DNA of 22,027 bases, taken from contig MGQK01000080.1 in the NCBI GenBank assembly GCA_001797815.1, forward strand, positions 22,907-44,933. The letters are read 5' to 3'. The stretch is from Deltaproteobacteria bacterium RBG_13_61_14 (lineage in GTDB: Bacteria > RBG-13-61-14). A program made the position numbers and the translations under genes. Positions 5,189-22,027 of the stretch are shown here, piece after piece; the first letter of the stretch is position 1, and each line of letters begins with the position of its first letter. Below the pieces are notes generated by a model. It worked only from the letters and a program-made list of their open reading frames with translations, did no database searches and was not told where the DNA came from.

Positions 5189-5209
5189 AACCTATACTCC
5201 TGACAGGGG

Positions 5210-5229: not shown

Positions 5230-5230
5230 G

Positions 5231-5761
5231 CTAGTTCCAGTCGAGCCGGCAGGGAATTTGGACCTCGGCTTCCACGATTCCCTCAGCCGTGTAAGCGCCG
5301 CTGCTCTTTTCCGGCCGGGCCGTGGCGCTGAACGAGGTGCGGGTCAGCGAACAGATCAGCACGCCTTCGGCTTGGTCAATCACCTGGGGCAGAGCTTCAA
5401 ATTGCCGATCGGTCTGCGTCTGCTCGCGGCATAACTCCTCCAGGCGATGGGCGATCTGCTGGCAACGGAAAAGCTCGCTGGTGCGGTCACCGCCCACGCA
5501 GACGATGCGGAAGCTGAGTTCAAAGACCTTGACCGGGTTCCGGAAGTTGGGGGCAAGGCCTTCCCGCTTGCCGGTGATCGTCACCACCAGGGCGGGCACC
5601 TCGTGCCGGCCATAGAAGCCGGGTTCGTCCCGCAGCCGCGCCTCGATGGTCTTGACCGGAGGATCGCCGGCTTCGCACAGTCCTCCCGGGCCGGTATCAG
5701 CCAGTAAGGTGGCTAGCACTTTTCCCCTGACCTGGAGATAATCGCCGTCCGCGAGCGGCAT
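5231..5761 (-). CDS. Probable tail completion/terminator protein
   Basis: 176 residues, mixed alpha/beta. The middle has strands HEVPALVVTITGKR and VKVFELSFRIVCVGGD followed by a helix with two cysteines (CQQIAHRLEELCRE), and the end is a long strand (GIVEAEVQIPCRLDWN). This size and strand-helix-strand pattern, together with a position between the Gp36-like connector and the tail tube, fits the tail terminator or neck proteins. The start at ATG 5761 follows a run of G that is only a weak ribosome binding site; the gene begins 13 bases after the upstream stop and is probably translated by coupling. Sequence alone does not prove the function. Confidence 0.55.
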   Translation of the reverse strand: MPLADGDYLQVRGKVLATLLADTGPGGLCEAGDPPVKTIEARLRDEPGFYGRHEVPALVVTITGKREGLAPNFRNPVKVFELSFRIVCVGGDRTSELFRCQQIAHRLEELCREQTQTDRQFEALPQVIDQAEGVLICSLTRTSFSATARPEKSSGAYTAEGIVEAEVQIPCRLDWN

Positions 5762-5773
5762 GGCCCGGCCCCC

Positions 5774-8442: not shown

Positions 8443-9432
8443 TTACGAAGTGGCGCAGCGGCGGAGCTGCCCGGTCTCGCCGGCCGCAGCGCCGTAGCGG
8501 CCCCAGCCGGCCACGGTCTCGGCATAGGCCAGGATGTCGGTCTCGCTGAGCACGGTCAGGTCCATGCGGATGCCGCTCTTGAGCTTGCGGCCGGGCAGGA
8601 CCACGAAGTAATGCGAGGTGTCGGCCGCGCTCAGGTCCTGGGTCTTGAGGCGGGTGGTCACGGCCAGGCTGACGTTGAAGTTGAGCTCGGTCGCGCCGCT
8701 GTTGATCAGGCTGGTGTTCAGCGCGTTGCGCACCCGGGCCATGAGCTGGACCGGCGCCACCACCACGAAGCGGGAGTTGGCGTTGACGTCAAAGCCCTTG
8801 CCCTGGAGCTCGTCCAGGATCTCGGCGCAGGCGGAGTTGATGGTCTCGGCGTCGCGCACGGCCTTGGTGTCGGAAGCGCCGCCCTGCCAACTCACGTCCG
8901 CGTCGGCCCGGCTCTTCGAGATCAGGTCGTAGTGGGCCTGGGCCTTGTTCGCATACCACTTGGCCCGGAACTCCTTGGCCGTATCCTCGATCTTCCAGTA
9001 TTCCTGGTCGTCGAACCACAGCTTGGACCAACCCAGGGCCCCGCCGTAAAGGTCGAAGTTGACGGTGACCTTGTCGCCCGAGACCTTGTAGACTTCGGCT
9101 TTTTCGCCGGGGGCAATGGCCCGGAAGCTCAAGCCCGAGGACACGTCCACCAGGTCAAAGCCGTTCTTGGCTGTCGCCGTAAAGTCCACCCCCTCGAACA
9201 CCTGTTCCCAGCCCAGGTCCGGCTCGTCCACCTGGTGAAAGCGGGCGATGGCCTCCGCCGCCGAGGCCGGGAAATCACCCGGAGTAGTGAATTCCTGAAC
9301 CCTGGCCCGGAACGCCGGGGCCGCCCGCCGGGGCCGATCCATGAAGTACTGCACCGCTTCCAGGAACTGGCGCACGCCTTCCGGGCTGCTCAGGTCCGCC
9401 TTATTCCAATCTGCAATCATCTTGCCGCGCAT
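8443..9432 (-). CDS. Phage major capsid protein
   Basis: 329 residues. It directly follows the cement gene and the protease-scaffold gene, the standard place of the capsid gene. The region GLSFRAIAPGEKAEVYKVSG, then DKVTVNFDLYGGALGWSKLW and KEFRAKWYANKAQAHYDLI, is the E-loop/spine-helix type pattern of HK97-fold capsid proteins. RFVVVAPVQLMARVRNALNT is the A-domain core, and HYFVVLPGRKLK with DLTVLSETDILAYAETVAGW the following strands. A strong AAGGAG with AGGA beyond precedes ATG 9432, as expected for a highly made protein. Hairpins flank the gene at both ends. The call is firm in role, less so for the exact family. Confidence 0.8.
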   Translation of the reverse strand: MRGKMIADWNKADLSSPEGVRQFLEAVQYFMDRPRRAAPAFRARVQEFTTPGDFPASAAEAIARFHQVDEPDLGWEQVFEGVDFTATAKNGFDLVDVSSGLSFRAIAPGEKAEVYKVSGDKVTVNFDLYGGALGWSKLWFDDQEYWKIEDTAKEFRAKWYANKAQAHYDLISKSRADADVSWQGGASDTKAVRDAETINSACAEILDELQGKGFDVNANSRFVVVAPVQLMARVRNALNTSLINSGATELNFNVSLAVTTRLKTQDLSAADTSHYFVVLPGRKLKSGIRMDLTVLSETDILAYAETVAGWGRYGAAAGETGQLRRCATS

Positions 9433-9507: not shown

Positions 9508-9876
9508 TCATGAAAGCACGATGAGGTCCACTAAAACCTCGTCGTCGTTCTCGCCCGCGGCCTCCAGAGCCTTGCCGCACTTGGCGTTGCCGGTGGCCAC
9601 GTCCGTGACTTTCTGGGCGGTGGCGTCGTAATACACGCTGGAACCTGCCGCCAGGTTGCGGCCGGTGCCGGTGGCCTTGGGCACCACGATCTTTTCCGCC
9701 TCATAGACCAGCACGAAATCCGAACTGGTCCCGGCATCCTCCACCACCACGCCCAGCGTGTCTCCGACCACGGTCATGCCGCCGGCGCTCAGCGTTTCGC
9801 TGGTGCCGGTGGTGGCCTTTAACGTCTTCGCGCTCTCCAGCTTCGTGCGAAGCTTGAGCCCGCTCTCTGTTACCAT
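9508..9876 (-). CDS. Capsid cement/decoration protein, DUF2190 type
   Basis: 122 residues, a small beta-rich protein. GTSETLSAGGMTVVGDTLGV, EKIVVPKATGTGRNLAAGSSV, YYDATAQKVTDV and GKALEAAGENDDEVLVDL reproduce the DUF2190 pattern of a protein that stabilises phage heads: GdxvxxGdlvgVa, an extended middle strand, GtxvYwD...kvt and iGkaleaa...gd..v.V.L. An AAAGGAGGAAAAC ribosome binding site precedes ATG 9876. It lies between the protease/scaffold and capsid genes, its usual place. Confidence is good because both motif order and length match the family. Confidence 0.85.
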   Translation of the reverse strand: MVTESGLKLRTKLESAKTLKATTGTSETLSAGGMTVVGDTLGVVVEDAGTSSDFVLVYEAEKIVVPKATGTGRNLAAGSSVYYDATAQKVTDVATGNAKCGKALEAAGENDDEVLVDLIVLS

Positions 9877-9940: not shown

Positions 9941-10879
9941 CTAATTTTCCTTGGGGATCAAGGGATTCCTTTGCCAAGGTTGGGAAAGATGCTGGTCCGA
10001 TTCGGGCGGAACCGGAAAACTTCTCTGGGAGGAGGGGACACCATCCGAATGGTGTCCCTCCTCCAAATGCTTCTGCACTTGCTCTTCCACCAACTTGGCA
10101 ATTTGCTCCGAGACTCCAGAGGGGACACCATCCGAATGGTGTCCCCAGTCCGTTGGCTGCTTCAATTGGGCAAGCTCCGCCTCCAACTCCTGAATGCGCT
10201 GGTCCCGCTGCTGGAGCTGGTTCTCCAGGTGTTGCATTTTCTTTTCGGAGGGGACACCATTCGGATGGTGTCCCCCCTCCACCGGTTCGAACTCCTGAAC
10301 CACCGCCAGCAGGCCGGCGCCCGGAAAACCCGGCGAAGCAAAAGCCCGCGAGCCCAGAGCCAGGCCCGTGACCCGGCGCACCGCTTCCACCAGCCAGCTC
10401 TCGGCCTTCCGCCGCCGCGAAAATTCCAGCTCGGCCTCGATGCTGCACGTGTCCAGCTCGCCGGAGCGAATCCGCTCGCGGGCCTCTGGGTCCGCGATGT
10501 AAGCCACGCCCAGGGCATGGAGCCGGCCCTTTAGCCGGCGCACGGTCGCGGCCACGATCTCGCCGACCTTTCTCCGGGGCGAGTTGTCCGCATTGTGGAA
10601 GAGATAGACCGGCGCCTGCGCCAGGTGCCGCGCCAGCTCGCGGATGCGCTCGGCGCTCCAGCGCTTCTTGGTGCCTCGTGGCACATGTTTAAAACCTGTG
10701 CCCCTAGACAAAATTCGGCCTCGGCTTTCGCCTTCATGACCGGCGGTGAGCGCCACGAAGCAGGGATGGGGATCATGGGCCTTGATCGCCTGATAACGCT
10801 CCTCCCCGATCAGCGCTCTCACTTCGTCCCGCGCCATCTCTTGCACCGGCGCGCACAGATAAACTTTCTCCGAATTCAC
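9941..10879 (-). CDS. Prohead protease-scaffold fusion, with four palindromic insertions
   Basis: 312 residues starting at GTG 10879, whose start overlaps the portal stop (GTGA). Residues 1-190 look like a prohead serine protease (S78-like): VYLFHNADN with His95, and GELDTCSIEAELEF with Ser146, are the candidate catalytic pair, followed by VTGLALGSRAFASPGFPGA. Residues 212-241 are a coiled coil (QHLENQLQQRDQRIQELEAE) and the rest is a low-complexity, proline/glutamine-rich tail, as in scaffold domains. The coding sequence is interrupted by palindromic elements encoding residues 59-70, 203-211, 246-254 and 275-283. The last three read GHHPNGVPS or GHHSDGVPS. All keep the frame and lie outside the putative catalytic segments, in the leader region and around the coiled coil. 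Confidence 0.7.
   Translation of the reverse strand: MNSEKVYLCAPVQEMARDEVRALIGEERYQAIKAHDPHPCFVALTAGHEGESRGRILSRGTGFKHVPRGTKKRWSAERIRELARHLAQAPVYLFHNADNSPRRKVGEIVAATVRRLKGRLHALGVAYIADPEARERIRSGELDTCSIEAELEFSRRRKAESWLVEAVRRVTGLALGSRAFASPGFPGAGLLAVVQEFEPVEGGHHPNGVPSEKKMQHLENQLQQRDQRIQELEAELAQLKQPTDWGHHSDGVPSGVSEQIAKLVEEQVQKHLEEGHHSDGVPSSQRSFPVPPESDQHLSQPWQRNPLIPKEN
10028..10064. repeat. In-frame palindromic element, copy 3
   Basis: Core at 10035-10058 with arms GGGACACCAT and ATGGTGTCCC around CCGA; GGAGGA and TCCTCC extend the stem with one bulged base. Translated on the minus strand as GHHSDGVPS within the protease-scaffold gene. Confidence 0.9.
10121..10146. repeat. In-frame palindromic element, copy 2
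   Basis: Perfect 11-base arms GGGGACACCAT and ATGGTGTCCCC around CCGA. Same family and the same reading frame as 10028-10064 and 10247-10280; encodes GHHSDGVPS. Confidence 0.9.
10247..10280. repeat. In-frame palindromic element, copy 1
   Basis: Core 10251-10274 with arms GGGACACCAT and ATGGTGTCCC around TCGG, flanked by GGAG and CCCTCC. Encodes GHHPNGVPS on the minus strand, directly before the coiled coil. The loop is the reverse complement of that in the other two copies, that is, this copy is inserted in the opposite orientation. Confidence 0.9.
10680..10702. repeat. In-frame palindromic element of a second family
   Basis: GGCACATGTTT pairs with AAACCTGTGCC with one mismatch. With flanking bases it encodes RGTGFKHVPRGT (residues 59-70) in the protease-scaffold gene. 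The GGCAC..GGTTT plan resembles the intergenic hairpins at 8400-8430 and 9482-9505. Confidence 0.75.
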
Positions 10880-12180
10880 TCCGGCTCCTCCTCGAATCCG
10901 GCCCCATCAAGGTCACGGCCTTCCAGGTCAGCTTCTTCAGCCTCGGGCTCAATGTCGGGCAAGAGGCTCAGCAAGGTCTTGAGCGAAATCGCGCCTTTTT
11001 CCCAGAGCGGCAGGTAGAGCGCGCTCAAACGGTCCACCTGCGCCTGGGTGATGAACTTCATCCGCGGCTCGACCCCGCCGGCCTGGAAAGGCGCCTTGTC
11101 CGAGGCCAGGTTCAGATTCCGCAGCCGCACCGCCTTGTCGAAGAGGTCCTTGAACCCGCCGATCCAGCTCCGCTGCTCGGCGATGCTGACCAGGGCCACC
11201 GGCTCCATGGTGTTTTCAGCAGTGGCTCGGTTGCTCATGAATTCGGGGAAACCCAGGAACTGGACCGGCACGCCGGCCCCGCCGGCCAGAATCTTGACCT
11301 TGGTCTCGATCTCCTGGCGGATACTCTCCACCCCGGCCGAGTCCATGCCCACCAGACTGAATTCGGCCGGCCCGGCAAAGACCTTCCCAATTTTCCAGTT
11401 CACCCCAGGGCTGAGCAGGCGATCATACAGGTCCTTGGCCTCTTGCAGGTCCTCGGTGCGGAAGTAAGGCGTGGGCGAAGCGAAGTAGCGGTTGATCTGG
11501 CGCCAGTCGCGGAGCGCCTTGTCAATGTCCTCCGCCTCGACCAAAAGGCCGGAGAGGGTGGGGATGCCTTCGCGGCTGTGGATGCGGGCGTTGAACTTGA
11601 TCAAGACCGCGCGCTCGGCCGGGATCACCACTTCCTGGCGGTCGTTGCCCGGCCGGCGGTAGCGGATGCGGAGGATCCGGCTGTAGAGTTCGTCGTCGTA
11701 GTCCACCTCGTAGCGGGTATCGTTCCAGGAGAGGAAGCGGAGGCGGACGTTGCCCGCCTCCGCGTCCCACTCCAGGATGAGGAGCACCTGGCCTTCCAGC
11801 TCTTTTTCCACCGCGAGCGATTGGCCGAATTGGCCGTCGAGCTCGTTCAGGCGGACCATCTCCTGGATCAAGGCCAGTTCCCGGGAAAAAGCGGACGGGT
11901 CGCGGGCTACTGCTTTGAGGCCTCCGGCCATGGCAAGGGCGGCGCGGGTGTCCACCAGGCGCTGGATGAGCTGGTTGCCGTAGCGGGCATAGCCCTTGTA
12001 CTTTTTCACCAGCTCGTCAATCAGCTTCTCCCGGTTGTCGTAGGGGTTGGGAGAGGCGGACGCGCTTAGCGCCTTTTCGCCCGCCGAGAAGGTGAGGATG
12101 TCGGTGATATATTCCTGGCTCTTGGCCAGCTTCACTTCCAACTCCTCGATCCGCTTTGTCTGCGACCTTTTCCCGAACAC
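10876..12180 (-). CDS. Phage portal protein
   Basis: 434 residues from GTG 12180, preceded by AAGGAGAGAGAGC. After a coiled N-terminus come VDTRAALAMAGGLKAVARDP, LVLLILEWDAEAG-type strands (GQVLLILEWD), IPAERAVLIKFNARIHSREG, IPTLSGLLVEAEDIDKALRD, and the late helix pair MSNRATAENTMEPVALVSIA and RSWIGGFKDLFDKAVRL. These reproduce the crown-wing-stem organisation of portal proteins, and the RATAENTMEPV helix is characteristic of the stem. The protein forms the dodecameric vertex through which DNA is packaged. Its C-terminus is acidic and overlaps the protease start. It is the first gene of the operon; the terminase that should precede it is absent. Confidence 0.8.
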   Translation of the reverse strand: MFGKRSQTKRIEELEVKLAKSQEYITDILTFSAGEKALSASASPNPYDNREKLIDELVKKYKGYARYGNQLIQRLVDTRAALAMAGGLKAVARDPSAFSRELALIQEMVRLNELDGQFGQSLAVEKELEGQVLLILEWDAEAGNVRLRFLSWNDTRYEVDYDDELYSRILRIRYRRPGNDRQEVVIPAERAVLIKFNARIHSREGIPTLSGLLVEAEDIDKALRDWRQINRYFASPTPYFRTEDLQEAKDLYDRLLSPGVNWKIGKVFAGPAEFSLVGMDSAGVESIRQEIETKVKILAGGAGVPVQFLGFPEFMSNRATAENTMEPVALVSIAEQRSWIGGFKDLFDKAVRLRNLNLASDKAPFQAGGVEPRMKFITQAQVDRLSALYLPLWEKGAISLKTLLSLLPDIEPEAEEADLEGRDLDGAGFEEEPE

Positions 12181-12201
12181 GCTCTCTCTCCTTGTCTATG
12201 G

Positions 12202-12219
12202 AAAAATGTTGCAGTTTTT
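12202..12219 (-). promoter_or_regulatory. 18-bp element upstream of portal, repeated at 20405-20422
   Basis: AAAAACTGCAACATTTTT on the minus strand, ending 21 bases upstream of the portal GTG. The identical 18 bases occur once more in the window on the plus strand at 20405-20422, also upstream of a gene. Protein binding or promoter function is inference. Confidence 0.5.
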
Positions 12220-12294
12220 AGGGAGGAGAAGAGAGAAAATCCACAGATTACGCCGAGTTCGGGGATTTCTCGAAGAGAAGGCAGAAAAAGCTAG

Positions 12295-12546
12295 GTAATC
12301 GGGGTGTCAGTGGTGTGGGGCGGGATTCATCCGACCCTGGTGCCGGAGACGGCTCTGGCGGCCGATTACATGGACAACATCGTGACCGGCGAGGCGGAGG
12401 AAAGCGCGGTGAAGTTCGCGCAGGCACTGCGGGAAGGGCACTTGCCGGAAGAGGTGCCGGGCGCGGACCGTGCCCCGGATGGTGCCGGACTGGCAGTATT
12501 CCTTGCTGCGCCGGCGGTTTTTAACCGGCGCCTGTCTTGGGCCGAT
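12295..12546 (+). pseudogene. Fragment of a B12-binding radical SAM gene
   Basis: Codons from 12295 read SVVWGGIHPTLVPETALAAD and then YMDNIVTGEAEESAVKFAQA. This closely follows the cobalamin-binding domain of B12-type radical SAM enzymes (VVWGGvHPTllPe...yvDivvrGEgEe). The match ends at about 12465, after which the frame becomes meaningless, and there is an in-frame stop just upstream (12292-12294). Neither the N-terminal part nor the CxxxCxxC radical SAM half is present. A palindrome (12508-12532) lies near its 3' end. It is therefore a relic about 55 codons long, left between the prophage operon and the secreted hydrolase gene, and it marks a rearrangement or deletion at this boundary. Confidence 0.6.
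12508..12532. repeat. Palindromic element in the relic region
   Basis: GCGCCGGCGGTTT faces TTAACCGGCGCC, an imperfect inverted repeat with the GGTT/AACC core seen in several other elements of the window. Confidence 0.6.
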
Positions 12547-12570
12547 CGAGGAGTTTTTCGAGCTCCGGCC

Positions 12571-13815
12571 CTACTTGTCCAAAGATAGCGGCTCCTGATG
12601 CCACAGCTCCACGAACTTATTCTCCGGCTTGGTCAAGACCGCTTCGCCCGAGTTATCGCCTTTTAAATATTTATTGAAGAACGCGACCGAGTAATCCTGG
12701 TAGGCCTGGGCCTTTTCCGCGAAATGGGAACGGAAGCCGGGCAGCACCCAGCCGGCGGCGCTGACGTTAAGGGTCATGTCGGCGATGGTCATGTGGTCGG
12801 TCTTTTTCAGGCGGAGGACATATTTGGGCGCCGGCGCGTGTTCGTAAAGGGTCCAGATCGGATCCCAGGGCACTTCCATGCTCTTGTTGTCGCCGGTGAT
12901 GATCATGACCGGGATTTTGATTTCAGCCGCGGCGCGATCGAGGTGCGGGAAAAAGGCGGCCGGACCGAGCGGCAGTATTGCCTTCACCCGCGGGTCCCGG
13001 GACTGATACGGGTCGGAATTGCGCACGTAGTCCAGGCAGCAGGGGTTGGGAACGCGGTCCAGATCGAGTTTCTCGAAGTCGCAGCCTTCCGGGTTCTGGT
13101 CTTCGGGTTGATCGCAGAAGAAGGGCACGCCGCCGACCATGAGGGAAGTAAAACCTCCCAGGGAATGGCCGGTGACGCCGATCCGGTCCGGGGCGATCTT
13201 GTTATACATAAATGAAGATTGGTCGCCGTTCCAGCGCAGGGCCTGGTCAATGGCGGCCTTGGCCTCGTCCGGCCGGTAAGAAAAATCAAAACCTTTCTCT
13301 CGAAAGCGATCGCCGAAGAGGGCAAACACCGACCCGGAAAGGTTGCCGCCGGACTTGACCGCGGCCCAGGCGATCTGGCCGGGGGTGATGTCCGGCTCGC
13401 GGTCCAGGTGGCACATGGCCGAGTCCTCATGGTCCGGCGCTACCACCACGTAGCCGAAGCTGGCCAGGTTTTCGGTGTAGAAGATAGACTGGGTGCCGCA
13501 GCCGCCCATGCCGTGCGAGAAAAGGATCAGCGGATACGGCGCGCCTTTGTCGTTGAGCGGCGCGTCGGCCAGGGCTTGGCCCTGGACCTTGCCGATGTAA
13601 GGATAGGCCTTGGCGCCGGCCTCGGCTCGAGCCGGGGACCAGACAATGATCGCCATCTCCCGGCCCTGATACGGAATGTGCTCCAACCTGGCCCCCACGG
13701 GGTAGGGGCCTTTGGGCGCAGGGATTTTCGCGCCCGCGCCGGCCCCGGCCGGAACGACGATCATCACCGCCAACGTCAAGGCTATATTTATGGCCGAAAT
13801 TCTTTTGATCATCAT
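12571..13815 (-). CDS. Secreted alpha/beta hydrolase (PAF-acetylhydrolase/dienelactone-hydrolase-like)
   Basis: 414 residues. Residues 1-27 are a signal peptide (KR, a hydrophobic stretch, then PAGAGAGA), so the enzyme is exported. PLILFSHGMGG (about 95-105) is the oxyanion loop, and GHSLGG carries the nucleophile Ser218; Asp309 (ITGDNKS) and His341 (KTDHMTIAD) complete the triad. Six or more cysteines (positions 106, 135, 234, 245, 259, 260) suggest disulfides in the periplasm. The closest families are bacterial proteins related to platelet-activating-factor acetylhydrolase isoform II; the natural substrate is unknown. An AAGGAGGGGATC ribosome binding site precedes ATG 13815 (the following ATG is equally possible). 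It is transcribed away from the hydrolase at 14094. Confidence 0.85.
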   Translation of the reverse strand: MMIKRISAINIALTLAVMIVVPAGAGAGAKIPAPKGPYPVGARLEHIPYQGREMAIIVWSPARAEAGAKAYPYIGKVQGQALADAPLNDKGAPYPLILFSHGMGGCGTQSIFYTENLASFGYVVVAPDHEDSAMCHLDREPDITPGQIAWAAVKSGGNLSGSVFALFGDRFREKGFDFSYRPDEAKAAIDQALRWNGDQSSFMYNKIAPDRIGVTGHSLGGFTSLMVGGVPFFCDQPEDQNPEGCDFEKLDLDRVPNPCCLDYVRNSDPYQSRDPRVKAILPLGPAAFFPHLDRAAAEIKIPVMIITGDNKSMEVPWDPIWTLYEHAPAPKYVLRLKKTDHMTIADMTLNVSAAGWVLPGFRSHFAEKAQAYQDYSVAFFNKYLKGDNSGEAVLTKPENKFVELWHQEPLSLDK

Positions 13816-13970
13816 GATCCCCTCCTTCAGGCAAGCTTCTTTTCAGAAATTGAATTCCTTATGGCAATTACCGCGGGAATTCAGCACCCATTCCATTCTA
13901 TTCCTTTCCGATCATCTTTTTCAAGAGCCGGCTTCGACTTGCCGCCAAGTTTTGGAGAAAGCCCTTGGGA

Positions 13971-13999
13971 TTGCTTTCACGGGTCGGGGTGCTTATACT
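13971..13999 (+). promoter_or_regulatory. Sigma70-like promoter for the 14094 hydrolase
   Basis: TTGCTT (13971-13976) and TATACT (13994-13999) are separated by 17 bases. It lies about 95 bases upstream of ATG 14094 and inside the longer open frame that begins at a TTG at 13965, which argues for the downstream start. Confidence 0.6.
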
Positions 14000-14093
14000 T
14001 AAAGTCAAGCGGTTGCAAAAGGGTTCTCCGATCGAGCCTGCCAGCGGCACCGATCGCCCGATCAAACCCGACGAGAAAGGTTTATGCGCAAAG

Positions 14094-14897
14094 ATGGTTT
14101 CGATTATTGATCATCCGTTGATCAACTCGTTTCTGTTTTACCCTCGCCCGCTCCGGGTCGAAGATTTCCCTTCTTTGCCCCAGGGGTCGCTGCATACCAT
14201 CTTGGTAAACGGCAGCGACCGGATCTCGGCCTACTGGTACCGGCCGCTGCCTGACCGGCCGACCATGCTCTTCTTCCACGGTAACGGCGAGGTGATTACG
14301 GGCTACCTCGATGACTTTCACCGCGCCGTCGAGTTGGTGGGAGCCAACTTCGCGGTTGTGGATTACCGGGGCTATGGGCTGAGCCAGGGCCGGCCGAGCC
14401 TGAGCGCAATCCTGGAAGACGCCCACGCGGCCTGGGCTTATTTCACCGGCGAGCTCGGCCTCCAGGCCGGGCAGATCATCCTGATGGGCCGCTCCCTGGG
14501 CTCGATCCCGGCGCTGGAGCTGGCTTCCAGCCAAGGCCGGAATTGCCGGGGCGTCATCATCGAGAGCGGGATCGCGGGATTCAGCCGCTGGATCGAGACC
14601 ATGGCGCCCATGCTGGGCGGCATCGGCCTCGATTTCCCGGCGCTCAAGCAGGCCTTCCAGGAGAGCCTGGACCACGAGGCCAAGATCAAGAAGATCACCC
14701 GGCCCCTGCTCATCCTCCACACCGAGCTAGATCAGATCGTGCCCTCCGGGAACGCCCGCGACCTCTATGCCTGGGCCGATCCTTCCCGCACCACCCTCAA
14801 AATCTTCCCCCGCGGGGACCACAACACCATCTTCTTTATCAACGCCGGGGAATATTTTCAGATAATCGGGGATTTTATCCAAAGATTGAACGATTAG
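14094..14897 (+). CDS. Cytoplasmic alpha/beta hydrolase (ABHD13/17-like serine hydrolase)
   Basis: 267 residues from ATG 14094. MLFFHGNGE (oxyanion loop), DYRGYGLSQGRPS, GRSLGS with nucleophile Ser134, Asp213 in HTELDQIVP and His243 in RGDHNT give a complete serine-hydrolase triad, in the order and spacing of the ABHD13/ABHD17/Bem46 group. No signal peptide is present with this start. An open frame continues upstream to 13965, but its 43 extra residues are not family-like and overlap a good promoter, so the shorter start is chosen; no clear Shine-Dalgarno sequence supports it. The substrate is unknown; esterase or thioesterase activity is expected from the family. It converges with the 14955-15563 gene. 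Confidence 0.8.
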   Translation: MVSIIDHPLINSFLFYPRPLRVEDFPSLPQGSLHTILVNGSDRISAYWYRPLPDRPTMLFFHGNGEVITGYLDDFHRAVELVGANFAVVDYRGYGLSQGRPSLSAILEDAHAAWAYFTGELGLQAGQIILMGRSLGSIPALELASSQGRNCRGVIIESGIAGFSRWIETMAPMLGGIGLDFPALKQAFQESLDHEAKIKKITRPLLILHTELDQIVPSGNARDLYAWADPSRTTLKIFPRGDHNTIFFINAGEYFQIIGDFIQRLND

Positions 14898-14954
14898 GTA
14901 GGAAACGAGAATCCAGCCTTCCCGGCTCCCTGGGAATTTCGGCGGTTTCTTGAT

Positions 14955-15563
14955 TTATAACGCCGTAATTGCTTGAAGTTTTTCCAGGTATTCCCGAACC
15001 TTGGTCGCGCTCAAGTCCACGTCCTTGTAGTTGGGCATTTTCATTTGCACGGTCTTCTTGTCCGCCAGGAAGGTGGTAAACCCGTGCTGGAACAAATTTG
15101 CCAGCGCCTCACGTCGACGCCCGTCGTTGAGCAGGTAAGCGGCGCGGGTCGGGTCGTTGGTCCGGACTTGGTGGGCCTCGTCAAACTTGGGGTCGCCCAG
15201 CGTGAATTTCTTGAGCAGATCAAAGAAAAAGGTCTGCCGCTTATACCAAGGGACCTTGACCTCCACCCGGAGCCGGAAGTCGAGCGGCCGCATCTGTTCC
15301 ACCACCAGGTAAGGCGGAGTATAGCGAGTGCGCGGGACCAGCCGCACCCGAAGCTCGACCTCAGCCTTGCGCAGGGAAAGGTAGCCCCCTTTGAGGAAGT
15401 TGGACACGAACTCGCCGCCCAGCTCCTGGGCCAAAGTGCGAAGATGCTTGCGCTCGCCCCGCCGGCCGAGGTAATAGATCAGAATCCCCCCGGCCATGAT
15501 CGCGACCCAGATCAAAACCACCGCCAGGCCCGGATCGCTGTCGGACTGTGCCCAGAAATGCAT
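14955..15563 (-). CDS. Membrane-anchored protein of unknown function
   Basis: 202 residues. Residues 13-33 (LAVVLIWVAIMAGGILIYYL) are one transmembrane helix followed by positively charged RRGERKH, so the remaining soluble domain is predicted to be cytoplasmic. The soluble part alternates strands and helices (VELRVRLVPRTRY, PLDFRLRVEVKVPWYKRQ, FFFDLLKKFTLGDPKFDEAH, FTTFLADKKTVQMKMPNYKD). I do not recognise the family. A GGGAGG ribosome binding site sits upstream of ATG 15563. The gene is a single transcription unit between the convergent hydrolase and the divergent purM, so its neighbours do not reveal its role. Confidence 0.7.
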   Translation of the reverse strand: MHFWAQSDSDPGLAVVLIWVAIMAGGILIYYLGRRGERKHLRTLAQELGGEFVSNFLKGGYLSLRKAEVELRVRLVPRTRYTPPYLVVEQMRPLDFRLRVEVKVPWYKRQTFFFDLLKKFTLGDPKFDEAHQVRTNDPTRAAYLLNDGRRREALANLFQHGFTTFLADKKTVQMKMPNYKDVDLSATKVREYLEKLQAITAL

Positions 15564-15614
15564 CTCTTTTAACCTCCCGGTTGAAGTTTTTTATCCAGTT
15601 TATTCTAAAAGGAG

Positions 15615-15788
15615 ATGGAAAGCGATTTCAAGGAGCTTGCCACGCCGCTGCTTTCGCGCTATTTTGATTGCCACCCGACAAGCGCCCGACCAAGGAGACG
15701 GTCATGCCGAAAAAAACGAAAAAGGGCCTCACTTACGCCCGGACCGGCGTGGTGGCCAAGGACGCAGAGGCCTCGTTCAAAACCCTGA
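15615..15788 (+). pseudogene. Possible 5' remnant of a DUF885-like gene upstream of purM
   Basis: An AGGAG-type site (AAAAGGAG) is followed by ATG 15615 and a short frame beginning MESDFKELATPLLSRYFDCH, then PTSA. This resembles the N-terminal pattern of DUF885 peptidase-like proteins (F..La..yl...l..hPt.At). The resemblance ends at the purM ribosome binding site, and the rest of the 57-codon frame is only a shadow of purM. It could be a truncated gene or a coincidental small leader ORF; the evidence is weak. Confidence 0.3.
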
Positions 15789-16789
15789 TCGCCTGGGTCA
15801 ACAAGACGCTCCAGAACCGGCCCGAGGTCAAGACCGAGGTCGGGCTTTACGCCACCGTGATTGATATCGGCCACGGCCAGGGCCTCGCCCTTTCCACCGA
15901 CGGCGTGGGCACCAAGCTCTTTATCGCCCAGATGCTCGGCCGCTTTGACACCGTGGGCATTGACTGCGTGGCCATGAACGTCAACGACTTGATCTGCGTG
16001 GGCGCGCGGCCCATGGCCATGTTGGATTACATCGCCATCCAGAACGCCCGCCACCCGCTTTTGGGCGAGTTGGGCCAGGGTCTCTACCACGGCGCGCTCC
16101 AGGCCGGGATCACGATTCCGGCCGGCGAGGTGGCCCAGCTCAAGGAAATGGTCCGGGGCCTGAAGCCGGGGATCGGATTTGACCTGGTCGGCACCGCGGT
16201 CGGCCTGGTGGACTTGAACAAGCTGGTGGTCGGCCAAGGCATCGAGGAAGGAGACGCGGTGGTGGGGCTCGCAAGCTCGGGCCTGCACTCGAACGGCTAC
16301 ACCCTGGCCCGCAAGGTCTTGCTGAGCAAGTTCAAGCTCAGCCAGAGGCCCAAGGGCCTGGGCCGCACCTTGGGGGAGGAGCTTTTGGAGCCGACCCGCA
16401 TTTACGTCAAGCCGGCGCTCCAGATGCTCGAGCGATGCTCGGTCAAGGCGCTGATCCACATCACCGGCGAGGGCTATCGCAACCTGCGCCGGATCCGCTC
16501 GGCTGCGGGCTTTGTCCTGGACCGCTTTCCCGAAATCCCGCCCATTTTCAAGCTGATCCAGAAGGAGGGCGGGATCGAGAATACCGAGATGGCCCACACC
16601 TTCAACCTGGGCATCGGCCTGTGCGTGGTGGTGCCGCGGCCGGAGGCCGAGGAAGTCATCCGCATCAGCCGGGAGTTCGGGATCCCGGCCCAGGTCATCG
16701 GCCACGCGGTCAAAGACCCGGAAAAGAAAATCGTGATGCCCAGCCTGAAGGTGGTGGGCAAGTCCGATCGCTTTCATGAAGAATCGTAG
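15704..16789 (+). CDS. purM: Phosphoribosylformylglycinamidine cyclo-ligase (AIR synthetase)
   Basis: 361 residues. It performs the ATP-dependent ring closure of FGAM to AIR in purine synthesis. LALSTDGVGTKLFIAQMLGR, TVGIDCVAMNVNDLICVGAR, PMAMLDYIA, GFDLVGTAVGLVD, GLASSGLHSNGYTLARKVL, LEPTRIYVKPALQ and the late MAHTFNLGIGLCVVV are the core PurM signatures. The sequence GITIPAGEVAQLKEM takes the place of the usual GGETAEMP segment, so the nucleotide-binding turn is divergent. This could mark a lineage variant of PurM or an altered activity. The start at ATG 15704 has AAGGAGACGGTC upstream; the longer frame from a TTG at 15668 lacks support. The stop codon lies within a hairpin repeat (16786-16846). 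Confidence 0.85.
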   Translation: MPKKTKKGLTYARTGVVAKDAEASFKTLIAWVNKTLQNRPEVKTEVGLYATVIDIGHGQGLALSTDGVGTKLFIAQMLGRFDTVGIDCVAMNVNDLICVGARPMAMLDYIAIQNARHPLLGELGQGLYHGALQAGITIPAGEVAQLKEMVRGLKPGIGFDLVGTAVGLVDLNKLVVGQGIEEGDAVVGLASSGLHSNGYTLARKVLLSKFKLSQRPKGLGRTLGEELLEPTRIYVKPALQMLERCSVKALIHITGEGYRNLRRIRSAAGFVLDRFPEIPPIFKLIQKEGGIENTEMAHTFNLGIGLCVVVPRPEAEEVIRISREFGIPAQVIGHAVKDPEKKIVMPSLKVVGKSDRFHEES

Positions 16790-16846
16790 GTCGCAGGTCG
16801 GGCAGAGAAAATCTTCTCTTCGCCCTACCTGCGACCTGCTACCTAC
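16786..16846. repeat. Large hairpin repeat overlapping the purM stop codon
   Basis: GTAGGTCGCAGGTCGGGC on the left faces GCCCTACCTGCGACCTGC and ACCTAC on the right, with AGAGAA/TTCTCT in the inner stem: about 60 bp, imperfect. The purM TAG is part of the left arm. It can act as a transcription end or be a repetitive element of the genome. Confidence 0.8.
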
Positions 16847-16888
16847 TGCTCTTGAGCCTCTGCCAGCCTTATGCTACCCTGCTTAGCA

Positions 16889-17371
16889 ATGACCTCCGAG
16901 CCTGCCATCTCCGCGCCGAGCTTGGAGCTCCGCTTCCGCGACATGAGCCGGACCGATCTTCCCGAGATCATGGCCATCGAGAACATCTCTTTCCCCACCC
17001 CTTGGACCGAGGCCATGATCCTGCGCGAGTTCGAGACCCCTCACAGCGTCCATCGCCTGGCCGAGCGCGAGGCCTGCGTGGCCGGCTACATGATCTCATG
17101 GCTCACCCCGCCCGAGGCCATGATCATGAGTCTTGCCGTGCACCCCCAGCTCCGCCGCCAGGGCATCGGCCGGGCACTGCTCTCCGACAGTTTAAAATTT
17201 TTTCATTCCACCGGGATCGAAACGGTATGGTTGGAGGTCCGCCTCCAGAACCTCGCCGCCCAGTCGCTCTACCAGCGCTTCGGCTTCCGCGAGGCTTACC
17301 GCCGGCGGAGCTATTACCAGGATACCGGCGAAGACGCGATCGTCATGGTCAAGAAGGTATCGCCAACATGA
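16889..17371 (+). CDS. rimI: Ribosomal protein S18 alanine N-acetyltransferase-like GNAT
   Basis: 160 residues from ATG 16889 (ATG 16871, six residues longer, is possible; neither has a good ribosome binding site). LRFRDMSRTDLPEIMAIENI and FPTPWTEAMI are the RimI N-terminal motif. MSLAVHPQLRRQGIGRALL holds the acetyl-CoA binding signature R-x-x-G-x-G/A, and NLAAQSLYQRFGF followed by RRRSYYQDTGEDAIVM is the typical RimI end. RimI acetylates the N-terminal alanine of protein S18. The gene overlaps pyrK by ATGA and is therefore translated with it, although the functions are unrelated. Confidence 0.85.
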   Translation: MTSEPAISAPSLELRFRDMSRTDLPEIMAIENISFPTPWTEAMILREFETPHSVHRLAEREACVAGYMISWLTPPEAMIMSLAVHPQLRRQGIGRALLSDSLKFFHSTGIETVWLEVRLQNLAAQSLYQRFGFREAYRRRSYYQDTGEDAIVMVKKVSPT

Positions 17372-18207
17372 AGCCGGTCCAGGCCCAGGTCATCCACAAC
17401 TACACCCTCGCGCCCCGCATCTTCCGGATGGGGCTCCTCCCGCTCGAGCCCCTCCCTCACGCCGTGGCCGGACAGTTCTACATGGTCCGCGTCTCCCGCG
17501 GGCTTGATCCTCTGCTCCGCCGGCCGCTCAGCCACTTCGGCTACTGCCGGGCGCCGAAACCCAAATCCTCCCGGGCAAAAGGCGAAGCCGCGCTGGAAAT
17601 CCTCTACCAGGTCAAAGGCCGCGGCACCGACCTGCTCTCCCGAATGACGCCCGGCGAGCACACCGACCTGATCGGCCCGCTGGGACAGGGCTGGCAGCCC
17701 GAGCCTTCGGCCGAGCGGCTCTTGCTCCTCGCCGGCGGCATCGGCATCGTGCCGCTCCGGGGCCTGGCCGACCAGCTCCGGGTCCAGGGCGATAAGCGGC
17801 CCCTCACCCTGATCTGGGGCGCTGGCACCGGCTCGGAAATTTGCTGCCGCGAGGATCTGGAGGCGCTGGACCTCGAGCTTTTGCCGGCCACCGAAGACGG
17901 GAGCTTCGGCCATCCCGGCCTGGCCACCGACCTCCTGGAGCCCATCCTGGAGGACATCGGGAAAACCCCTGTCGCGGTCTTTGCCTGCGGGCCCTGGGCC
18001 ATGCTCAAAAAGATCGCGGAGGTCACAAGCCAAAAGAAAATTCCCTGCCAGGTCTCGCTGGACGAGTTCATGGCCTGCGGCCTGGGCGCCTGTCTTTCCT
18101 GCGTGGTCCGCGGCCGCGCCCGGGACCACGAGCCTCCGCAGAACCTCCGCGTCTGCAAGGAAGGCCCGGTCTTCCGCGCCGAGGAAATTGATTGGAACGT
18201 GAGATGA
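17368..18207 (+). CDS. pyrK: Dihydroorotate dehydrogenase electron transfer subunit
   Basis: 279 residues starting at ATG 17368, inside the end of rimI. LLRRPLSHFGYC is the flavin-binding RxxS motif of the ferredoxin reductase fold, LLAGGIGIVPLRGLADQL the NAD-binding motif, and FACGPWAMLK a late core motif. The C-terminus carries the four cysteines of a [2Fe-2S] cluster: CGLGACLSC, then a fourth cysteine in RVCKEGPVF. PyrK passes electrons from the class 1B PyrD to NAD+. pyrD follows 143 bases downstream, with a repeat in the gap. The longer open frame beginning at 16852 is a shadow of rimI in a different frame. Confidence 0.92.
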   Translation: MKPVQAQVIHNYTLAPRIFRMGLLPLEPLPHAVAGQFYMVRVSRGLDPLLRRPLSHFGYCRAPKPKSSRAKGEAALEILYQVKGRGTDLLSRMTPGEHTDLIGPLGQGWQPEPSAERLLLLAGGIGIVPLRGLADQLRVQGDKRPLTLIWGAGTGSEICCREDLEALDLELLPATEDGSFGHPGLATDLLEPILEDIGKTPVAVFACGPWAMLKKIAEVTSQKKIPCQVSLDEFMACGLGACLSCVVRGRARDHEPPQNLRVCKEGPVFRAEEIDWNVR

Positions 18208-18211
18208 AGAG

Positions 18212-18325
18212 TTCTCACCACAAAGACACCAAGGGCACAAAGGTTAAGAAAGTTTTGCACCTTTGGCTCTTAAATCTTTCCTCCTTTCTTCAAACTTCGT
18301 GTCTTTGTGCCTTTGTGTTTAAATC
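18212..18325. repeat. CACAAAG-type inverted repeat between pyrK and pyrD
   Basis: CACCACAAAGACACCAAGGG and following bases (left) face GTGTCTTTGTGCCTTTGTG (right) as an imperfect long inverted repeat of about 110 bp. It occupies nearly the whole pyrK-pyrD gap. Elements of this plain CACAAAGACAC type are known as repeats in many bacterial genomes; the pair of arms could form a strong RNA hairpin between the two operon genes. Confidence 0.8.
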
Positions 18326-18349
18326 CTTTCTTCCTTTTCGGAGTCTATT

Positions 18350-19273
18350 TTGCCCAGCCTAAGCCCCAACCTCGAAGTCAATATCGCCGGCGTCGCCATG
18401 AAGAACCCGGTGGCTGCCGCCTCCGGCACCTGCGGCTACGGCGACGTTTATGCCGAGTTCTACCACCCGGCTGAGCTCGGCGCGCTGGTGACCAAGGGCA
18501 TCTCGCTTGAGCCGCGGCTCGGGAACCCCACGCCGAGAATGGCCGAGACCCCGGCCGGCATGCTCAACTCCATCGGCCTGGAAAACGTGGGCCTCAAGGT
18601 CTTTTTGAACGAGAAACTGCCGCCGCTCTGCGATTCCGGCGTCACCGTGGTGGTGAACTTTTTCGGCAACACCGAGGACGAATACGCCTGGCTGGCTGAG
18701 ACGCTTTCTTCGGCGACAGGCGTGGCCGGGCTGGAGGCCAATATCTCCTGCCCTAACGTCAAAGCCGGCGGCATCGAGTTTGGGACCCGGCCCGAGGTGG
18801 CCGGCAAGCTGGTCGAGAGGATCAAGGCGGTCTGCGGGAAGCCCCTCTGGGTGAAGCTCTCGCCCAACGTGACCGATATCGCGGCCGTGGCCAAGGCGGT
18901 GGAGCAGGCCGGCGCCGACGCCATCTCCGCCATCAACACCTTGAAGGGCATGGCCATTGACTTGGACGAACGCAAGCCCGTCCTGGCCAACGTGACCGGC
19001 GGGCTGTCCGGACCGGCGATCAAGCCGGTGGCGCTGCGCATGGTTTACGAGATCGCTCAGGCGGTAAAGGTCCCGGTAGTCGGAGTCGGCGGCATCACCA
19101 CCGCCAAGGACGCGCTGGAATTTATCGTCGCCGGCGCCTCCGCCATCCAGGTCGGCACCGCCTCGTTCGTGAACCCCCGCGCTCCCATCCAGATCATTAA
19201 CGGCATCAAGAACTGGATGCGCGAAAATAGCCTGGAGCGAGTGCAGGACATCATCGGGACGCTGAAGGTGTAG
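18350..19273 (+). CDS. pyrD: Dihydroorotate dehydrogenase, catalytic subunit, class 1B
   Basis: 307 residues from TTG 18350, with GGAG seven bases upstream; no better start is present. NPVAAASGTCGYGDVY, LVTKGISLEPRLGNPTPRM, ANISCPNVKAGGIEFGT (with the catalytic cysteine used by class 1B), VKLSPNVTDIAAVAKAVE, INTLKGMAIDLDERKP, GGLSGPAIKPVALRMVYEI and VVGVGGITTAKDALEFIVAG are the FMN- and orotate-binding motifs in order. The enzyme oxidises dihydroorotate to orotate in pyrimidine synthesis and needs PyrK, encoded just upstream, for NAD+ use. Length and motifs are complete. Confidence 0.93.
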   Translation: MPSLSPNLEVNIAGVAMKNPVAAASGTCGYGDVYAEFYHPAELGALVTKGISLEPRLGNPTPRMAETPAGMLNSIGLENVGLKVFLNEKLPPLCDSGVTVVVNFFGNTEDEYAWLAETLSSATGVAGLEANISCPNVKAGGIEFGTRPEVAGKLVERIKAVCGKPLWVKLSPNVTDIAAVAKAVEQAGADAISAINTLKGMAIDLDERKPVLANVTGGLSGPAIKPVALRMVYEIAQAVKVPVVGVGGITTAKDALEFIVAGASAIQVGTASFVNPRAPIQIINGIKNWMRENSLERVQDIIGTLKV

Positions 19274-19310
19274 TGCCCGGTGCCTGGTGCACAGCAATCT
19301 AATAATTTTA

Positions 19311-19338
19311 GGGGCGTGGGTGACTTCACCCGCGCACC
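19311..19338. repeat. Palindrome downstream of pyrD
   Basis: GCGTGGGTGA and TCACCCGCGC pair (one wobble) across two bases, flanked by GGG and ACC. It is of the GGGTG/CACCC type also found at 5210-5229 and 9453-9472 in the phage operon. It lies 38 bases after the pyrD stop. The rest of 19274-19519 holds no gene. Confidence 0.75.
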
Positions 19339-19479
19339 TTACTTCTTTTTTCCACCTGGGTAATTTCCTTCCCAATCCTGTAGCTCTCTCCATTCCCGGA
19401 ATTTCTTTCCATTCCGGCCCTCTCTCCCAACCGGATGATATTCCAAACAATTTTTTCCCGCGCCAAATGGCATAAGGCT

Positions 19480-19488
19480 TGCTATACT
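19480..19488 (+). promoter_or_regulatory. Extended -10 promoter element
   Basis: TGCTATACT is an extended -10 box without a clear -35 partner, 31 bases upstream of ATG 19520, so the transcript would have a short leader containing the AAAGGAGG site. Confidence 0.4.
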
Positions 19489-19519
19489 TAATCAAGTAAA
19501 AACCCAAAGGAGGACGGTC

Positions 19520-20110
19520 ATGGAAGAGACGATAATTTTAGCTTTGGCTGGACTGGCGGCCCTTATAGTTCTCACCTTCCCAATTCATCTCATTGTCTTG
19601 ATAATTAGGAAAATAAAATCTCGTCGAAATCCACCCCAGCAAAGACCTGCATCATCCCCGGTTATCACCCATTTTGTGATTGCAAGCATAATATTCCTGG
19701 CCGCTATTGCCATTCCTAACTTTTTAAAATTTAAAGTTAGGAGTGCAAAAAGCCCCCAATCCGAAGCCAAAACCAACCTTGGCGCCATCTACATGGCCCA
19801 GCTTTCTTACTTTAGCGACCACCTCACCTATGCCGGCGGCTCGGATACTTTCAAGCTAATCAATTGGGAGCCGGCGGGGCAGAATCGCTACGCTTATTAT
19901 TGCCAGGGCGCGATGATACCCAACAAGAACACCCGATACCTGAAAGAGCCGCCTCTGCCTGGCAGAAACTGGCCGGTGGATCAGGTGCCCGCGACTTCCG
20001 ATACCGGCTTCACCTGCATGGCGGTTGGCAATATTGATAATGATGACACTCTCGATGTCTGGTCTATCAATGATTCGAAAATCTTGAGAAATGATCTAAA
20101 CGACATTTAA
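19520..20110 (+). CDS. Pilin-like protein with two membrane segments and no prepilin leader
   Basis: 196 residues, preceded by AAAGGAGGACGGTC. Residues about 4-29 are a first hydrophobic helix followed by RKIKSRR. Residues 51-71 (FVIASIIFLAAIAIPNFLKF) and the following EAKTNLGAIYMAQLSYFSDH match the N-terminal helix of type IV pilins and pseudopilins (AIAIPNFLKFq...EAKTNLgAIytAq.sYf). The prepilin peptidase site (G-FTLIE) that should begin this helix is absent and replaced by ITHFVIAS. The C-terminal half is pilin-like: YYCQGAMIPN, CMAVGNIDNDDTLDVWSIND. It may be a processing-defective pilin relative used as a membrane protein. The gene is more AT-rich than its neighbours. Its partners are not in the window. 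Confidence 0.75.
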   Translation: MEETIILALAGLAALIVLTFPIHLIVLIIRKIKSRRNPPQQRPASSPVITHFVIASIIFLAAIAIPNFLKFKVRSAKSPQSEAKTNLGAIYMAQLSYFSDHLTYAGGSDTFKLINWEPAGQNRYAYYCQGAMIPNKNTRYLKEPPLPGRNWPVDQVPATSDTGFTCMAVGNIDNDDTLDVWSINDSKILRNDLNDI

Positions 20111-20293
20111 AGACCAATTCCGAATGCAAGCTAAAGCATCGAGCAGGTATCCTAACCTGCCCTGCGCTGTTCGTATCTTTTTCAGTTTAATTGTGGATAA
20201 ATTTCTTCCCTATATAATCTGCCTAATCTGCATTGCAATCTGGCCTCAACTTTTCTTTTTGAAAGTTATTTTTCAACCGTCGCTAAGACCAGC

Positions 20294-20356
20294 GTAGGGG
20301 CGCAATTCATTGCGCCCCCGGTCGGAGAGGCAGGGCGCGATAAATCGCGCCCCTAC
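20294..20356. repeat. Composite palindrome: two hairpins within an outer inverted repeat
   Basis: GGGGCGCAAT-TC-ATTGCGCCCC (20297-20318) and GGGCGCGAT-AA-ATCGCGCCC (20333-20352) are two separate hairpins. The outer ends GTAGGGGCGC and GCGCCCCTAC are also inverted copies, so the whole 63 bp can fold as two hairpins or one long stem. Confidence 0.85.
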
Positions 20357-20404
20357 TTCGGTTGCGGTCCTGCCGCGCTGGGAAATCAGCGGATTTTCCA
20401 TCTG

Positions 20405-20422
20405 AAAAACTGCAACATTTTT
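20405..20422 (+). promoter_or_regulatory. 18-bp element, second copy
   Basis: AAAAACTGCAACATTTTT, the exact counterpart of 12202-12219 on the opposite strand. It ends 30 bases before ATG 20453 and is followed by ACAAGG and AGGAG, similar to the sequence after the portal copy. Confidence 0.5.
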
Positions 20423-20452
20423 ACAAGGGTGTAGGAGTATGCCTTCCTCGGA

Positions 20453-20917
20453 ATGAGTGAAGAAAGCCAAGCCAATGCCGGCGCCGGTCTTTTCGACCTG
20501 GAAGAGACGCCCTCGGACAATCTCCTGGCCAAGAGCAAGCGCGCGGATTATGAACTGGAATTCATCCGCAAGCTCCACATTCAGGCCATTGTCCAGGCCG
20601 ACCGGGCGCAAGGCCTGAATGACGCGCTCCTCAAACAGATCGCTTCCCATCTCAAGCTCCTGGACCTGCAGATCAAGCTTTGGTCGTGGCTGCAGAAGGA
20701 GGACGACACCGGCCTGGCCTCGGCCGCGCCGCTCTATGACCTGTGGCAGATTCTGCTTGAAATCCCGGAACTGGGCGAGATCCTTTCCCGGCGGGAAGTG
20801 CGGGAGCAAATTCTGGCCAAACTTTCCAGCAAAGAAAACCAGGAAGAAAATTTTACCACAGAGACACCCCTCGGCCTGAGCTCGGGCCGAAGGCAGAGAG
20901 CACAGAGTTCAAGATAA
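20453..20917 (+). CDS. Helical protein of unknown function with a repeat-encoded C-terminus
   Basis: 154 residues, almost entirely alpha-helical by composition, acidic at the N-terminus. Segments such as SKRADYELEFIRKLHIQAIV, QIASHLKLLDLQIKLWSWLQ and YDLWQILLEIPELGEILSRR are amphipathic. I do not recognise the family; a small regulatory or terminase-small-subunit-like protein is possible but not shown. There is no Shine-Dalgarno sequence at ATG 20453. A five-codon ORF (MPSSE) with GGAG upstream, starting at 20439, ends in an ATGA overlap with it and could couple translation. The last 20 residues (from 135) come from an inserted repeat (20856-20972), so the original C-terminus is probably lost. 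Confidence 0.6.
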   Translation: MSEESQANAGAGLFDLEETPSDNLLAKSKRADYELEFIRKLHIQAIVQADRAQGLNDALLKQIASHLKLLDLQIKLWSWLQKEDDTGLASAAPLYDLWQILLEIPELGEILSRREVREQILAKLSSKENQEENFTTETPLGLSSGRRQRAQSSR

Positions 20918-20980: not shown

Positions 20981-22027
20981 TTACTCCAGCGTGCAATTGC
21001 AGGACTGCTTCTCGCCGGGCAGACCGAGCTTCTGGTGGACTTCGGCCGTTTCCTTGCATAGCCCGATTTTTTTGCAGTTCAGGATGCCCATGAGAAACTG
21101 GTAGATGGAAAGGCGCAGCTCCGGCGCGAGCCGGAGCCTCCCGTCCGGGTCCTGGAAATCTTCCCCGTAGCGGAAGACCTCGCTGCCGAAGCGGGCGAAG
21201 TTGGGAAGCGTCTTGAAAAAGCGGAGGGTGCCCAGGGTCACGACCTCCGGCGCGACCGCGTTGATCGCCTCGGCGATTGGCCGGTAGTGCACGGCCCAGT
21301 TCTCGATGGGGATGATCGGGTCCAGCCGCAGCCGCACGTCCCAGCCTCGCTCCCGGAGCCGCCTTGCCGCTTCCAGCCGCTTGAGCGGCGGCGGCGACTT
21401 TTTCTCGTAGCGGCGGGCCACTTCCTCGGCGTTGAGCGAGAAGCTGACGATCACCCGGGGCGTAGGCTCCATTTCGAGCAGGCTGGCGACGTTGGTGGAC
21501 TTGGTGAGGAAGAGGAGTTTGTGGCGCTTCTGGCCGGCAAAGAGCGGGACGAGGTTGCGGGAGAGTTCGGTCGAGTCGTCCCAGGCGAGGCCGTCGGAAA
21601 GCTCGCCGCAGTTGAGCACCGCGGGCCGCTCCTCGGCCAAAAGCCACTCGCGCACCTCCTGGAACATGCGCGCGGTGTTGCTGAACACGGTCGGCTCCGG
21701 GTAATGGCGCAGGGTGAGGTTCAGGTAGCAATACTGGCACTCGTAGGGGCAGCCGTTGGCATGGGCCAGGATGTGGAAGTGGGGGCAGACGATGCCTTCG
21801 GGCGTCTTGTCGAAAAAGTGGATGAAATTGGAATAGCGCTTGCGCTCGAGGTAGCGCGGGCCTTGCTTGGCCGAGGGCGACTTGAACAGCGGCTCCTGGT
21901 TCCGCCGGATCTGGTCTTTCTTGCGCTCGTTCTGCCGGCGGTAGGTGCCCATGGTCTGGTGCGCTTTCCAGGCCCGGATCGAAAACTCCTTGACCCCGAA
22001 GCGCTGGGACACCTCGGCCAGCGGCTC
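20981..22027 (-). CDS. Radical SAM protein, spore-photoproduct-lyase-like, N-terminus at window edge
   Basis: The frame is open to position 22027, so the start may lie beyond the window; a GTG at 22012 is the first candidate. Counting from there, Cys88, Cys92 and Cys95 (CPYECQYC) form the CxxxCxxC cluster that binds [4Fe-4S] and SAM. CPHFHILAHANGCPYECQYC, then VLNCGELSDGLAWD, KHKLLFLTKST-like (HKLLFLTKST) and VIVSFSLNAEEVARRYEKKS are the pattern of spore photoproduct lyase-family proteins, including the DPIIPIENW segment. The end is cysteine-rich (SCNCTLE). The true substrate is unknown; SPL-like proteins also occur in non-sporulating bacteria. Confidence 0.8.
   Translation of the reverse strand, partial: EPLAEVSQRFGVKEFSIRAWKAHQTMGTYRRQNERKKDQIRRNQEPLFKSPSAKQGPRYLERKRYSNFIHFFDKTPEGIVCPHFHILAHANGCPYECQYCYLNLTLRHYPEPTVFSNTARMFQEVREWLLAEERPAVLNCGELSDGLAWDDSTELSRNLVPLFAGQKRHKLLFLTKSTNVASLLEMEPTPRVIVSFSLNAEEVARRYEKKSPPPLKRLEAARRLRERGWDVRLRLDPIIPIENWAVHYRPIAEAINAVAPEVVTLGTLRFFKTLPNFARFGSEVFRYGEDFQDPDGRLRLAPELRLSIYQFLMGILNCKKIGLCKETAEVHQKLGLPGEKQSCNCTLE

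Follow-up and report, generated by a model that had tools for sequence, protein, structure and literature searches.

Why should the same 18 bp stand directly before a phage-type portal gene and, in inverted orientation, before a gene of no recognizable family on the far side of a block of host genes? The question arises in a stretch of 22,027 nucleotides (the window, C80:22907-44933) of contig MGQK01000080.1 (C80), which belongs to the metagenome-assembled genome of Deltaproteobacteria bacterium RBG_13_61_14 (G000; 4.74 Mb, 132 contigs). A first-pass annotation had noticed the pair and offered two explanations: a shared operator or promoter, with the second gene as a displaced phage gene in the regulon of the particle genes, or recombination sites able to invert the DNA between them. 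Based on genomic context and on two related genomes, we propose that both 18-mers are probably copies of one promoter that depends on an activator and serves the split operons of a chromosome-resident, phage-derived particle that resembles a gene transfer agent (GTA).

An exact 18-mer upstream of three phage modules

Both copies of the element (Table 1) were found where first described, with a gap of 21 nt between copy 1 and the portal start codon (GTG 12180), and of 30 nt between copy 2 and the ATG of the gene at 20453, which encodes 154 amino acids (aa) and is called here open reading frame (ORF) 154. Sharing by chance had been judged unlikely, in agreement with the finding that the window contains no further match with up to 3 mismatches allowed, and that the 18-mer appeared in none of 100 dinucleotide shuffles of the window. 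In the whole of G000, the exact 18-mer occurs three times, always on C80. The third copy, at C80:45203 (window position 22297, 270 bp beyond the window edge), is followed by a methyltransferase-like ORF, a ParB-like ORF and the large terminase gene (TerL), and the exact element is thereby upstream of all three phage modules of the contig.

In the mechanism that we propose, the 18-mer would be a recognition core placed in the -35 region and followed by a weak TA-rich -10, and one trans-acting factor would turn on the head/tail operon, ORF154 and the methyltransferase/ParB-like/TerL run together. Particle modules kept apart by housekeeping genes would thus fire through a common promoter, which would also have been reused by, or derived from, the dispersed repeats described below. 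A similar organization is found in the Caulobacter crescentus GTA, where GafY/IHF act as co-activators of the main cluster and of ~18 accessory promoters for genes located elsewhere; these promoters are related, depend on the activator and have poor, degenerate -35 elements (PMC11150451). Unlike in that system, in which GafY/IHF are known, the core is here a different, AT-rich 18-bp sequence and the activator is inferred.

The competing idea, that the copies are recombination sites flipping the intervening 8.2 kb (12202 to 20422), takes its appeal from their inverted arrangement, but the orientation of each copy is explained by the direction of its downstream genes, and the third exact copy likewise points into a phage gene run. 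A site-specific inversion switch would combine inverted repeats with a cognate recombinase nearby, and no recombinase was recognized among the window ORFs or those around it on C80. Moreover, this 18-bp element has dozens of genomic copies in both orientations, and in relatives its diverged form is found at the corresponding place upstream, beside host flanks that differ. Inversion is, on these grounds, hardly credible.

Regarding the immediate flanks, ACAAGG and GGAG had been reported after both copies; the two motifs are indeed present downstream of each, but not in the same register, as ACAAGG is 6 nt farther off in the portal copy. An exact GGATTTTC lies 15 nt upstream of copy 1 and 6 nt upstream of copy 2, as had also been noticed; the third C80 copy lacks it, and these two are the only ones of the 42 genomic sites examined that carry it within 60 bp. 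ORF154 is possibly translationally coupled to a 5-codon ORF that starts at 20439 and has a stop overlapping the ATG at 20453 (ATGA). About 50 bp upstream of copy 2, a 24-bp inverted repeat with a 15-bp loop is present (20294-20356), and similar GTAGGGGCGC-type sequences occur elsewhere in the genome.

Conservation of the particle genes and of the element in relatives

Among the genomes compared, only two, G001 and G002, belong to the same order, and both represent another family (uncultured delta proteobacterium, Alinen lake sediment). Each contains one portal orthologue with 68-70% identity, the gene being single-copy in all three genomes, while host purM gives 62-64% in the same genome comparisons. 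The portal clusters of both relatives follow the gene order of G000 next to different flanking genes. Ten particle genes are intact in all three genomes, with ratios of nonsynonymous to synonymous substitution rates (dN/dS) of ~0.12-0.25 between G001 and G002; the particle genes are under purifying selection.

A diverged form of the element precedes the portal in both relatives (AAAAACCTATGTAACATTCTTCCTATATATAGAGGGG in G002 and AAAAAACTCTATGTTACGATTTTCCTATTTATAGGGGG in G001), and both forms match the G000 repeat form AAAAACTGCAACATTTCTCCATATAATAGAGG. It lies ~170 nt before the portal start in G002 and ~110 nt in G001, and is therefore not tied to the ribosome-binding site. This bears on the possibility that the 18-mer is a 5'-untranslated-region or translation-initiation element, as suggested by G000, in which a short distance of ~15-30 nt separates it from the start codon at most repeats as well as at the portal and ORF154. 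Besides being at odds with the distances in the relatives, such a role does not suit the repeat ORFs, which show no third-codon-position excess and in some of which the start is gone or a stop has arisen; we deem it very improbable.

The packaging module provides a second comparison. G000 and G001 have in common the order ORF154(-like), a spore-photoproduct-lyase-like (SplB-like) radical SAM gene on the minus strand, methyltransferase, ParB-like and TerL, with identities of 43% for both the methyltransferase and the ParB-like protein, 61% for TerL, and those of Table 1 for ORF154 and the SplB-like protein. TerL is single-copy in G001, where it matches PHROG 38 (2e-99) and Terminase_6C. The G001 orthologue of ORF154 is preceded by a diverged element as well (position weight matrix score of 16.7 vs a shuffle maximum of 2.1). 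With the element before the portal operon in both relatives and before the packaging module in G001, the proposals of a shared promoter or operator and of a displaced phage gene in the same regulon thus gained support. The SplB-like gene itself is a separate observation, as two families of the order have it within the terminase module (window 20981-22027; L150:1411-2628).

By its position and a low-confidence, all-helical structural model (mean predicted local distance difference test score, pLDDT, of 54.7), ORF154 is a candidate for the small terminase. It shares with the GTA-type small terminase (PMC6854486) its short length, a mostly helical prediction and a place within the packaging module. 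It differs in that family searches gave no match for it, and in not being adjacent to TerL, from which it is separated by the SplB-like gene (on the other strand) and the methyltransferase and ParB-like genes.

When matrices were built from repeats only, seven of the eight phage-side sites clearly gave their best fit with the repeats of the genome in which they lie; for the eighth, the G001 packaging site, the own-genome matrix also scored highest, but weakly over this core. Such a lineage-specific match between sites and repeats is expected from a shared, changing DNA-binding factor, although gene conversion or repeat insertion would give the same pattern. G001 and G002 have in common an upstream box, TCAA-N2-[GA][GC]TTA, ~36 bp before the core. 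A T7-like RNA polymerase (RNA_pol PF00940) gave no match in G000-G002, in a search that remained silent in control genomes too.

A dispersed repeat family that begins with the element

In G000, the degenerate form AAAAACTGCAMCATTTYT has 28 sites at up to 1 mismatch, 35 at up to 2 and 56 at up to 3; the reversed control gives 8 at this last limit. Inspection of the contexts of all genomic sites showed that ~36 of roughly 41 credible copies each open a member of a dispersed repeat family. Five copies lie outside repeats (the three on C80, C81:74651 and C75:19938), and the remaining sites look like chance. The C81 copy, a degenerate 18-mer, precedes ParB-like and PAPS-reductase-like genes (L056:8652-10718), and the C75 copy, with 2 mismatches (L068:8939-8956), is near a tyrosine integrase (L068:9771-10595). 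The non-repeat copies sit at phage-type or mobile-element genes. As to whether all copies precede phage genes, which the first-pass annotation had suggested checking, this is true of the three exact ones but not of the ~36 degenerate ones that head repeats. Many scattered copies, the proposed counter-evidence, were found in part; nevertheless, with the non-repeat copies placed in this way and the portal site conserved across families, the element is more than just another repeat. At the C75 locus, an ORF (L068:8011-8397) ends in RRKPEIVRR, to be compared with RRQPEIVRK at the end of a tail ORF of the window (6549-7670). Exact 18-mer matches in IMG/VR, on 14 AT-rich viral contigs without comparable context, were taken as chance.

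The repeats of G000 start with the 18-mer, continue through a middle part that varies, and close with a conserved 3' array whose units of 21 bp span two helical turns. At least four array subtypes with a common CCCAT-like core were distinguished (L049, L051, L062, L063 and other G000 loci), the unit of the commonest being CCACCCCATTCTGCACAGCAA; no such array was found near the C80 phage genes. G001 has 6 further dispersed copies of the element and G002 at least 10; in both relatives the anatomy seen is partial, as the repeat copies mostly stop at contig breaks. We rejected a small-protein family encoded by the repeats, since the array is read in differing frames, there is no third-codon-position excess, starts are lost and one stop is gained. 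A structured RNA was likewise rejected (12 copies folded to a consensus of -7 kcal/mol over 386 columns), and a scan of five stretches, from C80 and from repeats, against Rfam gave no match. No repeat was found in plasmids, and no gene type is shared downstream of the repeats, except that two copies (L064:4797-5585 and L072:8778-9575) are followed by homologous proteins starting with MTPEQILNR, possibly a regulator.

Several points weigh against a shared promoter. Promoter, regulator and particle are inferred here from sequence, most copies of the element are in repeats and not at phage genes, and the -10-like part past the 18-mer is weak at the phage sites. In addition, the TerL region of the G000 assembly contains runs of N, and in G002, a genome 87% complete, no packaging module was found. 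Moreover, the portal sites of G001 and G002 share a further 25-55 bp upstream with their repeats, and could thus stem from repeat insertion or conversion.

This last point, together with the ~36 copies that start a repeat with its variable middle and conserved 3' array, also favours another explanation: the 18-mer could be no more than the conserved left terminus of a repeat resembling miniature inverted-repeat transposable elements (MITE-like), whose dispersed copies landed ahead of phage genes, or remain there as stubs, with no regulatory role. However, no repeat sequence follows the portal and ORF154 copies, where coding starts within 21-30 nt. Furthermore, three genomes of two families have the element at the portal, and two genomes have it at the packaging module, which random landing would rarely produce with so few copies per genome. 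We therefore regard landed copies or stubs devoid of function as unlikely, and retain the activator-dependent promoter as the probable explanation.

With respect to the repeats themselves, the plainest reading is a simple mobile repeat with a promoter inside its end. They may parasitise the activator, or act as its decoys or targets. A more elaborate proposal, to which we assign a low probability, is that the repeats would be working parts of the particle system, each joining the particle promoter to a 21-bp array of protein-binding-like type and co-evolving with the regulator in each lineage, either as decoys setting the activator threshold or as distributed start points of transcription or packaging. 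Phage satellites such as P4 and phage-inducible chromosomal islands (PICI) offer a parallel, as the repeats could use the regulatory signal of a helper particle. Unlike satellites, the repeats are short, number dozens per genome, show no sign of coding or of conserved RNA structure, and lack integrase and replication genes.

Relation to gene transfer agents, and neighbouring genes

Two of the five GTA attributes of PMC9662315 were found, and for this reason the system is called GTA-like and not a GTA. Derivation from a tailed phage (Caudoviricetes) is evident from the G001 TerL and from cement, capsid-like and endolysin-like genes, and full endogenization over several loci from the host genes between the clusters on C80 and the separate contigs in G001. 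In what concerns vertical inheritance, the portal is single-copy throughout with an identity near that of the host gene, with three genomes being too few for tree congruence. The system resembles RcGTA, BaGTA and BhGTA (PMC9662315) in having phage-derived head and tail genes over several loci, apparently vertical inheritance and purifying selection. It differs from them in lineage and gene set (portal PHROG 27684, major capsid protein PHROG 24071), and particle production and gene transfer are here presumed. What is new relative to known GTA systems is the repeat family sharing the promoter: a dispersed repeat family carrying the particle promoter was not found described for GTAs in the literature searched.

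The element provides a sequence handle on a probable GTA-like particle in a delta-proteobacterial lineage that is uncultured and in which systems of this kind are difficult to spot. Genes scattered over the genome would be joined in one regulon by the promoter, among them a small-terminase candidate that could not otherwise be assigned. The lineage-specific sharing of this promoter with dozens of repeats is unusual, and allows a test of whether the repeats titrate, exploit or serve the domesticated phage.

Table 1. Position of the 18-mer copies, associated motifs and genes in the window.
Feature	Positions	Strand	Remarks
18-mer copy 1, AAAAACTGCAACATTTTT	12202..12219	-	proposed to drive the portal operon as an activator-dependent promoter; G001 and G002 portals preceded by a diverged form
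18-mer copy 2, AAAAACTGCAACATTTTT	20405..20422	+	proposed promoter of packaging-module gene ORF154; diverged form before the G001 orthologue
CCATAGACAAGGAGAGAGAGC	12181..12201	-	spacer/weak -10-like region and portal ribosome-binding site; weak match to CCATATAATAGAG of the repeats
GGATTTTC, upstream of copy 1	12235..12242	-	doubtful as functional part
GGATTTTC, upstream of copy 2	20391..20398	+	similar to CGATTTTGS before G002 elements
5-codon ORF (ATG CCT TCC TCG GAA TGA)	20439..20456	+	behind GGAG; by inspection
ORF154, small-terminase candidate	20453..20917	+	heads packaging module; orthologue at the syntenic place in G001 (E 5e-7, 32% over 94 aa)
SplB-like radical SAM gene	20981..22027	-	in module between copies 2 and 3; G001 counterpart 59%
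Portal-like	10876..12180	-	first gene of head/tail operon; PHROG 27684
Head protease/scaffold-like	9941..10879	-	by synteny; G001 orthologue matches PHROG 24820 (function unknown)
Head cement/decoration protein	9508..9876	-	Phage_cement_2, 2.7e-13; PHROG 122
Major-capsid-like	8443..9432	-	PHROG 24071; 70-71% to G001/G002
Connector and tail genes (gp36-like, tail-terminator-like)	1734..6547	-	family matches and relatives
Tube-like	3902-5188	-	part of connector/tail run
Short coiled-coil	2611-3240	-	part of connector/tail run
F5/8-type	1734-2501	-	part of connector/tail run
Host genes between both sites	12571..20110		purM-like 15668-16789, pyrD-like 18350-19273, pilin-like 19520-20110 (weak Pilin_PilA)

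As for the remaining genes, the operon after copy 1 ends with an amidase, further left on C80, and the purM-like orthologues of G001 and G002 are on other contigs. The G001 portal orthologue gave a weak Portal_Mu match, under the curated cut-off, and the major-capsid-like protein has a distant match in Microcystis phage MACPNOA1. In G000, a glycosyltransferase-like ORF (7667-8383) lies between the capsid-like and tail genes, with no counterpart at that place in the ORF lists of G001 and G002. The usual place of the tape measure is taken by an alanine-rich coiled-coil ORF (2611-3240) of 192-209 aa across the three genomes, which may point to a very short tail. Within the protease/scaffold-like gene (10032-10297), the near-perfect palindrome GGGGACACCATCCGAATGGTGTCCC is present three times, spaced 87 and 129 bp apart.

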